From the NCBI GenBank assembly GCA_016875435.1, contig VGRE01000014.1, forward strand, positions 1-32,287: DNA of 32,287 nucleotides, in the 5' to 3' direction. A model generated the notes under the pieces. That model searched no databases and had not been told where the DNA came from. It saw nothing but the letters and a program-made list of their open reading frames with translations. The first letter of the stretch is position 1. Each line of letters opens with the position of its first letter. This DNA is from Deltaproteobacteria bacterium (GTDB lineage Bacteria; Myxococcota_A; UBA796; SXON01). Below are positions 7,706-21,999 of the stretch, in pieces. Made by a program: the position numbers and the translations under genes.

Positions 7706-8506
7706 CTAGCCGACCGTCTCGTCGCTCCCCGTGAGCGGCAGCTGCGCGTAGGCCCCGGCGGCGGGGTCGGTGGTGCCGGCTTGCTCCACCGGGCGTGCCT
7801 CGGCGGGGGCTTGCTTCTTGCGGAAGAGGTCCAGGTAGATCTGCACCATGCACAGGTCGATGAGGATCAGCACCATGTGGTCGACGACGCCGGAGAGGCT
7901 GGCGTAGAGCAGGTTGGTGGACTGCGCGAGGAACACGATCAGGAGCTGGTAGGGAATCCACCACGCAAGGAACACCGCCATGGTGCGGAAGATCGTGCCC
8001 CGGCGACCCGAGGTGAGCCGCTGAGAGCGCGCGAGGGGGCTCTTTTCCTGCACGTCGAGGGTGGCGATGGCGTCGACGAAGGCGAACATGAGGCCGAACA
8101 GCACGCCGGGGACGATGACGATGTTGCCCGCGGCGATGATGGCGTAGGCCTTGAAGTGCGCGGCGAAGACGCGCTTGAAGCGGTTGAGACCGAAGTTGAC
8201 GGCCTCGTAGAGCGACGCCGGCTTGCCCTTCTCTCGTTGCACCCACAGGTAGATCTGCGCCGGGGCCGCCCAGGAGCCCACGAAGCCCGACCACACCGTG
8301 AGGACCAGCACGCTGAAGAGCTGGGTGACCACCAGGAGTTGCTGCCCCTTCATGTCCACCGCGTCGGCGAAGGCGGTGGCGGCCATCGTGGCCACTGCGC
8401 TGCCGACGCCCCCGGCGACGACCGAGATGAAGAGCACGATGCCGAAGTTCTGGAAGAACACCTCGAAGGCGTTCTTCAGTACGGTGCGGACGCCGATCTG
8501 ACTCAT
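7706..8506 (-). CDS. Multi-pass membrane protein, unknown function
   Basis: A 266-residue integral membrane protein with about five or six hydrophobic segments: near residues 20-45, 60-85, 120-145, 170-195 and 205-235. The N-terminus MSQIGVRTVLKNAFEVFFQNF and the repeated layout recall membrane proteins of the DUF975 or glycerophosphodiester phosphodiesterase membrane-domain type, with two related halves; I cannot assign a family. The C-terminal 30 residues are Pro/Ala/Thr-rich and probably cytoplasmic. It is the first gene of a likely two-gene unit with mfd, and is divergent from the RelA-like gene with only 32 nt between starts. No Shine-Dalgarno is visible; a GTTAGC element lies 10 nt before the ATG. 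Confidence 0.75.
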   Translation of the reverse strand: MSQIGVRTVLKNAFEVFFQNFGIVLFISVVAGGVGSAVATMAATAFADAVDMKGQQLLVVTQLFSVLVLTVWSGFVGSWAAPAQIYLWVQREKGKPASLYEAVNFGLNRFKRVFAAHFKAYAIIAAGNIVIVPGVLFGLMFAFVDAIATLDVQEKSPLARSQRLTSGRRGTIFRTMAVFLAWWIPYQLLIVFLAQSTNLLYASLSGVVDHMVLILIDLCMVQIYLDLFRKKQAPAEARPVEQAGTTDPAAGAYAQLPLTGSDETVG

Positions 8507-8538: not shown

Positions 8539-9606
8539 GTGCGGTCCGATCCCCTCGACCTTGACGACTCGATACCGGCAGCCGCCGAGCAAACGCCGCT
8601 GACGGCCCTCGACGAGGACACGATCCGGCTGGCGCTTGCTGGCGGGTCGGTGGTCGAGTGGTCGCGACTGAACTTCCGCTCGCACGACGAGGTCAACGGC
8701 TTCTTGAGGCTGTGGGGATGCGACCTCGTGGAGCAGGGCTGGGCGCGCGAGCGGCTGCGCTACCTGTACAACCAGGCCGTCGAGTACCTAGAGGAGCACG
8801 TCCAGCTTCACTTCGCCTCGGAGGTGCGCCGCCCGCGCGACGTGCGCGACGCCTTCCTGCGCGCGTCGATGCGCGACCGGTTCAGCCGCTACCGCATCCA
8901 GTACTGCGCGATCCTGAAGCTCGTTCACGTGATCAATCACCTCGAGATGCAGGAGCTGCGCTACCAGGTGGCGGTGCGAGAGCACGACCTGATCGAGCTC
9001 GCCAACGCGAAGGTGCTGGCGGCGGCGCGTCGCATGCGGGAAGAGGGCCACCCGGTGCTCGCCTTCTATGGCAACCGCAAGACCCGGCCCAGCGTGATCA
9101 CCAAGCTCCTCGCGAAGCGAGAGAGCACGGCCGCCACCGTCTTCGACAAGCTGCGGTTCCGTGTCGTCACCGAGACCCGTCGCGACCTCGTGTCGACCAT
9201 CGGGTGGCTGTTTCGGAACCTCCTGCCCTTCCCCGCGGTGATCCCCGGCGAGAGCCACAACAACCTGCTCACCGAGAACGAGCTCGCGGCGATCCAGGGT
9301 GTCGCTGCCGTCCCCGGCCTCGCGCCCGCGCCGGAAAACCCTCACACGAGCGGTTTCCGCGCCATCAACTTCGTGGCGGGACTTCCCGTGCGCGTTTACG
9401 ATCTCCCACGGATCAACACGCCGAAGAACCGGGCTCTTCTCGGGGAGGTCGTCTCGGTGCTCACCGAGTTCCAGGTGGTCGACCGCGCCACCGACGTGGC
9501 GAACGAGACGGGCGAGAGCCGTCACGACCTCTACAAGCTCCGCCAGATGCAGCGCGTGTACGAGCGGCTGGGGAGGACGATGAAGGCGCCGGTCGACGGC
9601 GTGTAG
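8539..9606 (+). CDS. Divergent RelA/SpoT-like nucleotidyltransferase-fold protein
   Basis: A 355-residue protein of an uncharacterised family that I associate with Myxococcota (possibly TIGR04552, unverified). Its C-terminal half follows the motif order of RelA/SpoT synthetase domains. YGNRKTRPSVITKLLAKR (177-194) parallels GRxKxxxSIxRKM. VFDKLRFRVVTETRRDLV (201-218) parallels the DLxAxRVIV strand, with Asp203 in the Mg position. SGFRAINFV (271-279) parallels NGYxSLHTTV. TEFQVVDRATDVANETGESR followed by HDLYK (309-333) parallels VEIQIRTxxMHxxAExGxAAHWxYK, with Glu310 in the catalytic Glu position. The guanine-stacking Tyr is Phe273 and the loop His is Asn277, so activity is uncertain. Start GTG 8539 has no Shine-Dalgarno; GATAAG lies 8 nt upstream. 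Confidence 0.7.
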   Translation: MRSDPLDLDDSIPAAAEQTPLTALDEDTIRLALAGGSVVEWSRLNFRSHDEVNGFLRLWGCDLVEQGWARERLRYLYNQAVEYLEEHVQLHFASEVRRPRDVRDAFLRASMRDRFSRYRIQYCAILKLVHVINHLEMQELRYQVAVREHDLIELANAKVLAAARRMREEGHPVLAFYGNRKTRPSVITKLLAKRESTAATVFDKLRFRVVTETRRDLVSTIGWLFRNLLPFPAVIPGESHNNLLTENELAAIQGVAAVPGLAPAPENPHTSGFRAINFVAGLPVRVYDLPRINTPKNRALLGEVVSVLTEFQVVDRATDVANETGESRHDLYKLRQMQRVYERLGRTMKAPVDGV

Positions 9607-9649: not shown

Positions 9650-9790
9650 ATGGCTCGCACCCCGGCCCCCAGGAAGCGCAACAAGAGCAGCCGCCACCGT
9701 GCCAAGCTGAAGGCGAAGCACACCAAGCAGCGGATGCGCGCGAAGGGCTTGCTGCAGAAGCGCGGCGGCGGTCGCCGCCTCCGTCGCTAG
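9650..9790 (+). CDS. Small, very basic 46-residue protein
   Basis: ATG at 9650 to TAG at 9788-9790. The product begins MARTPAPRKRNKSSRHRAKL and ends in a Gly/Arg tail. Almost half of the residues are Lys or Arg, with no acidic residue, so it should bind nucleic acid; small ribosomal proteins (THX, or the AURKAIP1/COX24-like bS22 type) are of similar size and charge, but I see no firm match. GGAG lies about 8 nt before the ATG. It sits 43 nt after the RelA-like gene and 6 nt before malQ in the same direction, so it is probably part of that transcript. Confidence 0.68.
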   Translation: MARTPAPRKRNKSSRHRAKLKAKHTKQRMRAKGLLQKRGGGRRLRR

Positions 9791-20475: not shown

Positions 20476-21078
20476 ATGTGGCGCTTCCATCCCAGGCTGG
20501 TACCTACGCTCGCCACTGTGGTCGCGCTGGCGGTGTTCGGCTCGCTGTGCGCGTGGCAGCTGCGGCGAATGGGCGAGGCGCGCCTCGCGCGAGCCGAGGC
20601 CGCTGATCGGCTCGCGGCCGAGCCCTTCGACGCCACTGCACCCCCGGCGGATCCCGGCGGGCGCCGGGCAACCGTGAGCGGCGTGCCCGACTGGACCGCC
20701 GTGTCGCGACAGGCGGCGGTGTCGCCCGCCTACGAGCAGGGCTACCGCATGGTGGTCCCAGTGGCCGGCGTACGCGTCGACGTGGGTTTCGTGCCGGAAG
20801 CCCTGTGGGACGCCGTGCTCGCGGCGGAGCGGGGGGTGCCAGGAGCCCGTGCCTACCGCGGCCTTGCCCGAGCCGACGCGGAGGGATGGTTGCTCGTCGA
20901 CGGCGACGGTTACGCGCGCGGCCGATCGCCGGCCGACCGCGAGCCTCCCGTGGCCGGGTGGGAGATCGTCACCCACGAGCGCCCCCACGGGGAGTACGCC
21001 ACCACCTGGGCGGCTTGCGCGCTCATGGTGCTCGGGTTCTGGGCCAGCGCGTCGTTCACGCGGTCGGCCCCGGCCTGA
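20476..21078 (+). CDS. SURF1-like cytochrome oxidase assembly protein
   Basis: A 200-residue protein with the SURF1 layout: an N-terminal membrane helix (about residues 8-25, ending in the WQLxR motif as AWQLRRMGEARLARAEAAD), a periplasmic domain and a C-terminal membrane helix (TTWAACALMVLGFW). The central part contains a VSGVPDW segment and QGYRMVVPV followed by VDVGFVPEALWD, matching the SURF1 GYxVxxPL...VNRGWVP pattern. SURF1 helps insert heme a into oxidase subunit I. Its place at the head of the oxidase locus supports the call. The product is somewhat short for the family (about 230-250). Start ATG 20476 lies 40 nt from the divergent amidohydrolase start. Confidence 0.85.
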   Translation: MWRFHPRLVPTLATVVALAVFGSLCAWQLRRMGEARLARAEAADRLAAEPFDATAPPADPGGRRATVSGVPDWTAVSRQAAVSPAYEQGYRMVVPVAGVRVDVGFVPEALWDAVLAAERGVPGARAYRGLARADAEGWLLVDGDGYARGRSPADREPPVAGWEIVTHERPHGEYATTWAACALMVLGFWASASFTRSAPA

Positions 21079-21141
21079 GCGTCCCGTCGTCTTGCCGGGC
21101 CGGGGGGGTGAGGCTATGCGCGCGCCCCTCCGGAGGCCAAG

Positions 21142-21999
21142 GTGGCCGGCAGTGGCGCCCCCGAGCACGTCCGACACCGCCTCGGCGCGGGCTTCGTGGC
21201 GCTCGCCGCCGTGACCTACGCCCTGCTGGTGTTCGGCAGCACCGTGCGCGTGCATGGCGCCGGCCTCGCCTGCCCCGACTGGCCGCTGTGTTTCGGCGAG
21301 CTGCTGCCGCGCTTCGACTTCCGCATCCTCCTGGAGTGGGGGCACCGGGTGCTCGCCGGCGGCGTCTCGCTTGGCTTCACCGGCCTCTCCGCCTACATCG
21401 CCTCGCATCGCGAGCTGCGGCACGAGCTGGGCGCGCACCTGCTGGTCCTCGCGGGCATTCTCTGCGCCCAGATCGTCTTCGGCGGCCTTACCGTCCTCAA
21501 GCTGCTCGCGTACTGGTCGGTCACGACGCACCTCCTCCTCGGCAACGCCTTCATGGTGGGGCTCGTCGGCCTGGCGATTCGCCTGCGAGGCACCGGCGGC
21601 GGCGCGCCTCCGCGCGGGCCAGTGGCCGCGCTCGCGGTACTGGTGACGGTGCAGATGGCGCTCGGCGGGCTGGTGTCGAGTAACTACGCCGGCCTCGCCT
21701 GCACCGAGTGGCCCACCTGCAACGGCGGCGTGTGGTTCCCCACCTTCACCGGCATCGTGGGGCTGCAACTCGCGCATCGCCTCGGCGCCTACGCGGTGCT
21801 GGTCGCGGCGGGGATCGTCGCGTGGCGCGCGCGCGGGCTCGGCACCTGGGTGCTGGCGCTCGTGCTGGGACAGGTGGCCGTGGGCATCAGCAACGTTCTC
21901 CTGGCCATGCCGGCCGAGCTGGCGGTGCTGCACGCCGCGCTGGCCCACGGCATCGTCGCCCTCACCTCGATCCTCGCCTGGCGAGCGGTGGCGAAGTGA
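21142..21999 (+). CDS. ctaA: Heme A synthase (CtaA/COX15)
   Basis: A 285-residue polytopic membrane protein with about eight helices in two related halves. It converts heme O to heme A. The heme-binding His residues are His68 (EWGHRVLAG), His130 (VTTHLLLGN), His212 (QLAHRLGAY) and His264 or His269 (VLHAALAHG). Both halves carry the periplasmic Cys pair: ACPDWPLC (Cys44, Cys50) and ACTEWPTC (Cys187, Cys193). The start is GTG at 21142 with a good GGAGG 5 nt upstream. The stop overlaps the start of ctaB (GTGA), so the two are translationally coupled. Confidence 0.95.
   Translation: MAGSGAPEHVRHRLGAGFVALAAVTYALLVFGSTVRVHGAGLACPDWPLCFGELLPRFDFRILLEWGHRVLAGGVSLGFTGLSAYIASHRELRHELGAHLLVLAGILCAQIVFGGLTVLKLLAYWSVTTHLLLGNAFMVGLVGLAIRLRGTGGGAPPRGPVAALAVLVTVQMALGGLVSSNYAGLACTEWPTCNGGVWFPTFTGIVGLQLAHRLGAYAVLVAAGIVAWRARGLGTWVLALVLGQVAVGISNVLLAMPAELAVLHAALAHGIVALTSILAWRAVAK

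Follow-up and report, generated by a model that had tools for sequence, protein, structure and literature searches.

The TIGR04552/TIGR04562 family as a divergent branch of the RelA/SpoT synthetase superfamily with an altered acceptor side

The gene and its family

Which reaction is carried out by a bacterial protein that is annotated as "TIGR04552 family protein" and nothing more? This question is raised by one gene of the window, by which the whole analysed stretch of 32,287 nucleotides is meant:

8539–9606, + strand: TIGR04552-family gene; 355 aa, GTG start; helical N-terminal domain plus divergent RelA/SpoT SYNTH domain

The codon equivalent to the GTG start is used by close homologues, and since dN/dS values against four relatives lie at 0.06–0.23, the open reading frame is a real coding gene under purifying selection. 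It is present in one copy in its own genome. Homologues with 62–94% identity to the window protein are encoded at 19 loci of the genome collection, and these originate from MAGs that are labelled mostly as Deltaproteobacteria, Myxococcales or Proteobacteria. Three loci (L006, L010 and L015) belong to "Klebsiella pneumoniae" MAG records, carry the gene at 65–71% identity and have surroundings resembling those of the other close loci; these taxonomic labels look wrong.

The window protein scores 250.9 bits against the NCBIfam model TIGR04552 (cut-off 125, residues 24–344) and 232.9 bits against TIGR04562 (cut-off 140), and both models are matched by all 30 aligned relatives. The "uncharacterised family" of an earlier note on this DNA is therefore this pair of models, neither of which has an assigned function. 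The window's own family (20 sequences, Asn277 throughout) forms a separate third branch beside the typical TIGR04552 and TIGR04562 members, and it reaches about 250 bits with TIGR04552 compared to 330–380 bits in typical members. The two distant clades share 22–38% identity with the window protein, and the counts of residue conservation given below refer to 50 homologues from the three clades. The gene was found in 119 of 189 sampled genomes of the phylum (~63%), nearly always in one copy, and none of 14 named control genomes gave a match. Within the taxonomic family to which the window belongs, it occurs in 21/22 genomes, and in 12/12 of those of good quality.

In the literature searched, the family is named in one paper only, as an annotation in Bdellovibrio sp. 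NC01 (PMC9888234). The paper describes an evolution experiment with six lines on a single prey, in which the TIGR04552 gene DOE51_RS08710 acquired a one-base deletion that exceeded 75% in one evolved line (Table 1 of PMC9888234), and it states that its single-nucleotide indels in coding genes lead to frameshifts. The gene therefore seems to be dispensable in Bdellovibrio sp. NC01, at least under the conditions of that experiment.

Homology of the C-terminal domain

9055–9573, + strand: RelA/SpoT SYNTH-like domain, residues 173–345 (hhalign, Foldseek, PF04607)

When the window protein was used alone, a Pfam search gave no match and a PDB search was uninformative; the relationship becomes visible only through family profiles. 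PF04607 (RelA_SpoT) matches 25 of 30 diverse family members with a best E of 7.3e-7, two of which exceed its gathering cut-off (29.9 and 28.0 bits vs 27), and a PF04607 search of whole genomes independently recovered family genes above that cut-off (G037:C15, G007:C25). A family profile run against all PDB sequences placed RelSeq 1vj7 first (E 2.3e-4), followed by RelP 6fgk and other GTP pyrophosphokinases. Profile-profile alignment with hhalign against 34 Rel/SAS domains of the same phylum gave a probability of 96.7% (E 3e-10), and the C-terminal domain alone reached 95.9% with the Rel SYNTH domain (E 6e-9), with controls of reversed profiles and mismatched domains at 0.8% or less.

An AlphaFold2 model of the window protein has a pLDDT of 71 and a pTM of 0.69, its confidence being limited by an alignment of 19 close relatives only; pLDDT is lower at the donor loop and the G-loop, and the pocket geometry of the model is not reliable. 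All 50 PDB matches listed by Foldseek are RSH proteins (Rel, RelA, RelP or RelQ), the best among the matches listed being 24io_A (E 6e-5, probability 1.00), and the TM normalised by target is 0.4–0.5 for RelP and RelQ. The proposal of the earlier note that the C-terminal half holds a divergent RelA/SpoT-like synthetase thus stands on the two checks it had named, the profile-profile search with its null controls and the predicted fold, which is that of an RSH synthetase. The C-terminal domain almost certainly belongs to the RSH SYNTH superfamily, and TIGR04552/TIGR04562 is an unrecognised, vertically inherited branch of it that includes the window protein.

Predicted residues for ATP binding and transfer

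9070–9117, + strand: donor (ATP) phosphate motif G178-N-R-K181-x3-S185-x3-K189-x3-K193, counterpart of RxKx3Sx3K with the Arg of RxK absent
9145–9162, + strand: D203-x4-R208, Mg-binding Asp and second adenine-contact Arg, both in 50/50 homologues
9466–9483, + strand: E310-x-Q312-x-x-D315, catalytic Glu motif, counterpart of ExQIRT; E310, Q312 and D315 in 50/50
9502–9537, + strand: N322-E-x-G325-x3-H329-x2-Y332-K333, counterpart of AExGxAAHWxYK (family profile and hhalign alignments)

In the hhalign alignment to Rel, D203 is paired with the Mg-binding Asp, E310–Q312 with ExQIRT, and HDLYK with HWxYK. The residues K181, S185, K189, K193, D203, R208, E310, Q312, Y332 and K333 are invariant in the 50 homologues, G325 is found in 50/50 and H329 in 49/50. 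Arg208 follows Asp203 at a distance of five positions, which is the same spacing as in D107/R112 of RelP and D90/R95 of FaRel2, and the roles assigned to the residues are taken from the literature on these two enzymes (PMC5794853, PMC11782079); those of the acceptor residues rest on this literature together with the motif counts. The counterparts of the alarmone-synthetase motifs, including the AExGxAAHWxYK-like stretch, are therefore located where they had been placed from the sequence of the window protein, and the Asp203/Glu310 pair, whose lack of conservation in homologues had been named as contrary evidence, is conserved in all of them.

The donor motif shows one deviation. Its Lys, Ser and Lys are invariant, whereas the Arg of RxK is absent in 50/50 family members and present in 34/34 Rel/SAS proteins. 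This could lower or abolish the use of ATP, and as read from the alignment it counts against an active enzyme.

The acceptor side

9229–9261, + strand: family-specific stretch F231...P236-x-x-S239-x-N241, located before the G-loop, where an insertion absent from Rel begins; F231 and N241 in 50/50, S or T at 239
9337–9372, + strand: G-loop counterpart N267-x2-[ST]-x2-[YF]273-R-x-x-[HNQ]277-F, in Rel PKxNGYxSLH; N267 in 50/50

Altogether three basic residues that are invariant in the 34 Rel/SAS proteins of the phylum are gone throughout the family, namely the Arg of RxK, which is the adenine-stacking Arg, the Lys of PKxNGY, which is the G-loop Lys, and the Arg of QIRT. Position 179, which corresponds to the RxK Arg, is occupied by N, G, S, P, H, A or T across the 50 homologues, and the adjacent position 180 carries a basic residue (R/K) in 45/50. 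At position 314, which corresponds to the QIRT Arg, V, I, L, M or C is found and never a basic residue, and the Thr of that motif is replaced by Asp315 in 50/50; both the Arg and the Thr are present in 34/34 ordinary Rel proteins, and the preceding Gln is kept in 50/50 of the family. F231, N241, N267, D315, Q336 and R343 are new invariant residues, and hhalign places an insertion of ~30–60 residues without counterpart in Rel ahead of the G-loop.

The G-loop itself is more variable than the window protein would suggest. Position 273 is Tyr in 47/50 homologues, with Phe in the window protein and two relatives only. Position 277, which hhalign sets on the His of YxSLH, is His in 21, Asn in 22 and Gln in seven of the 50; by branch, His occurs in 21/23 other TIGR04552 proteins, Gln in the seven TIGR04562-like proteins, and Asn is general in the window's family. 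The comparison with guanosine-specific synthetases thus failed at the G-loop, where the Lys is absent family-wide and the window protein has Phe273 and Asn277, and likewise at the QIRT motif. The earlier note had pointed to Phe273 and Asn277 as changed nucleotide-contact residues, which is correct for the window protein and does not hold for the family as a whole. Judged by the alignments, the telling family-wide change is the loss of the three basic residues, which the earlier note does not mention, rather than these two substitutions.

At the level of the individual branch, both substitutions may nevertheless matter. The Tyr-to-Phe exchange at the G-loop position was used to cripple FaRel2 (PMC11782079), and because of this the activity of the window protein may be lower than that of its relatives. 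The Apk2 (p)ppApp synthetases carry Asn in place of the syn3 His as a signature (PMC12226406), and the window's family shares this Asn, which by analogy makes an adenosine acceptor possible in the window's branch.

Proposed reaction and its alternatives

We think that the protein would be enzymatically active and non-toxic and would use ATP to pyrophosphorylate an unusual acceptor, and we assign this reading a probability of about one half. Since neither the PKxNGY Lys nor the QIRT Arg is left, and the F231–N241 insertion, N267 and D315 do not vary, the acceptor is probably handled unlike in (p)ppGpp synthetases. In the mechanism that we envisage, a Mg-dependent enzyme would bind ATP via K181, S185, K189 and K193 as well as R208, the Mg ion would be held by D203 and E310, and an acceptor stacked on Tyr/Phe273 would receive the pyrophosphate of ATP at its 3'-OH. 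This acceptor may be the 3' end of an RNA, an adenosine nucleotide, or some nucleotide that carries fewer phosphates. The helical N-terminal domain would probably act as a sensor or regulator, and the enzyme would have a housekeeping or signalling role and not that of a toxin. A narrower form of this reading, which we hold as less likely than not, is a core, non-toxic, phylum-wide RSH branch in which the acceptor of the pyrophosphate of ATP is neither GDP nor GTP; AMP/GMP-type nucleotides, cofactors and RNA 3' ends are examples of what it may be.

An ordinary (p)ppGpp synthetase, that is, an extra alarmone synthetase that uses ATP and GDP or GTP in a remodelled pocket and adds to the canonical Rel, appears rather unlikely. 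The conserved G-loop Tyr speaks for it, as does the His of 21/23 TIGR04552 proteins that do not belong to the window's family; with Tyr273 and His277 in most of these proteins, a guanosine acceptor also fits. The closest solved relatives, among the matches listed, are RelSeq, RelQ and RelP, and the canonical Rel that is also encoded in the same genome (a 736-aa open frame) could hydrolyse the product. These points are opposed by the family-wide absence of the G-loop Lys and the QIRT Arg, and by the replacement of His277 with Asn or Gln in 29/50 homologues.

Less probable still is a pseudo-enzyme or nucleotide sensor, in which ATP or an alarmone would be bound by the SYNTH fold but not turned over, and the N-terminal domain would relay the signal. 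The missing basic residues of the RxK, PKxNGY and QIRT motifs would agree with this, as would the Phe at the G-loop Tyr position of the window protein. A dead enzyme is argued against by the invariance, over three clades, of the Mg ligands Asp203 and Glu310, of the phosphate-binding Lys181, Ser185 and Lys189, and of Arg208, Gln312 and Lys333, as a decayed site is expected to drift. The earlier note had left the choice between a different nucleotide product and a pseudo-enzyme sensor; because the residues for metal, phosphate and transfer are invariant, a different product fits better.

The N-terminal domain

8590–9054, + strand: all-helical N-terminal domain, residues 18–172 (helices of the model); C123-x2-L-x3-H130-x3-H134 conserved

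The helices seen in the model confirm the helical N-terminal domain proposed in the earlier note, and the domain is unlike HD in both sequence and fold. A degenerate HD hydrolase was considered, as full-length Foldseek alignments of the window model to RelSeq spanned ~366 columns, and it was rejected: hhalign against the Rel HD hydrolase domain gave 0.8%, and a separate model of the domain (pLDDT 75.6, moderate, with 20 close sequences behind the alignment) had no match among solved structures in the PDB, HD domains included (best E 2.6). One helix of the domain carries a C-x2-L-x3-H-x3-H pattern (residues 123–134, window 8905–8940), with H130 in 50/50 and H134 in 49/50 homologues, which could bind a metal or another ligand. 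The spacing of K127-x2-H130-x3-H134 recalls the KxxDxxxN of Rel HD domains and was a further reason for considering the HD hydrolase.

Genomic surroundings and inheritance

Upstream of the gene lies a divergently transcribed membrane protein gene (7706–8506) that is weakly similar to UPF0259 and is itself followed by mfd; downstream, a basic ORF of 46 aa precedes malQ. Both mfd and malQ are near the gene at most of the 20 close loci, and across 40 loci (20 from close and 20 from distant genomes) no conserved neighbour was found. A conserved operon was thus rejected, as mfd, the UPF0259-like gene and malQ accompany the gene only in close relatives of the window, and other genes are found elsewhere.

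The 46-aa protein (window 9650–9790, + strand) starts with MARTPAPRKRNKSSRHRAKLKAKHTKQRMRAKG, consists of Lys and Arg to 43%, and is nearly identical in 15/19 close loci. It has no Pfam match, its matches in the phylum are mostly weak and occur in 13/113 genomes, and it is perhaps an RNA- or ribosome-binding small protein. In genus g2, the ORF lies on another contig than the TIGR04552 gene in genome G088, and in the 86% complete genome G097 it is present and the TIGR04552 gene was not found; a role as partner or antitoxin was rejected on these grounds.

Within the same genomes, the pairwise identities of the TIGR04552 proteins follow those of Rel (rho 0.91 in 10 genomes, permutation p 2e-4; rho 0.89 in 12 genomes). 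A search of 72,556 plasmids and 50,697 phage records gave no homologue. PADLOC gave no match for the window gene, and membership in a defence system was rejected for this reason. The TIGR04552 gene is a vertically inherited, core-like, chromosomal gene and not a mobile toxin. A toxSAS-type toxin of a toxin-antitoxin, defence or secretion system, which arrests growth by pyrophosphorylation of the tRNA CCA end or by (p)ppApp synthesis, is therefore very improbable, even if the tRNA-modifying FaRel2 is reported with a smaller basic acceptor patch (PMC11782079) and Asn277 of the window's family matches the Apk2 signature (PMC12226406): it is opposed by the lack of a conserved neighbour in the 40 loci, the unlinked small ORF of the other genus, the absence of PADLOC, plasmid and phage matches, and the single-copy vertical inheritance under purifying selection, with presence in all good-quality genomes of the taxonomic family.

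Comparison with known systems

With the long RSH proteins Rel, RelA and SpoT (RelSeq 1vj7, 24io), the window protein shares the SYNTH fold, the Mg-binding Asp/Glu pair, Kx3Sx3K, the Arg at D+5, ExQ and GxxxHxxYK. It differs from them in lacking an HD hydrolase domain by sequence or fold and in having no room for TGS and ACT domains, and its family lacks the three basic residues named above (of RxK, PKxNGY and QIRT) and has the insertion before the G-loop. RelQ and RelP (5dec, 6fgk, 6ex0) are likewise synthetases without a hydrolase domain, and their donor residues are the same except for the first Arg. In contrast to them, the window protein has an N-terminal domain of ~170 residues where RelQ and RelP have a short N-terminus, as well as altered acceptor residues, and it would not have their C-terminal helical bundle, because just 22 residues follow the YK motif. 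The toxSAS FaRel2 and the pyrophosphotransferases Apk1/Tas1 and Apk2 resemble it as divergent SYNTH folds with unusual acceptors; they are toxins with antitoxin or immunity partners or export modules, whereas the window gene is core-like and without a conserved partner.

A family known by its model number alone can thus be described as an RSH-type synthetase, in which the residues for the chemistry appear intact and the acceptor pocket appears rebuilt. Non-guanosine members of the RSH superfamily in the cited literature are toxins or exported enzymes, and a vertically inherited core member of this kind would be a different use of the RSH fold. If the acceptor is indeed other than GDP or GTP, these bacteria would use pyrophosphate in a further signal or RNA modification, so far unrecognised, that runs alongside the stringent response. 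For alarmone-type signalling beyond Rel, in this phylum and in Bdellovibrio, the family would offer a concrete candidate that is easy to assay.

The genome of the window contains, in addition, a second and very weak RelA_SpoT match at about 20956–21252 of G000:C31 (L090:1363–4500, − strand), with 26.9 bits in the genome search and 22 bits on the protein. It sits in a 1731-aa open frame, the sequence of which is otherwise without assignment and which possibly holds another divergent RSH-type domain within a large protein.
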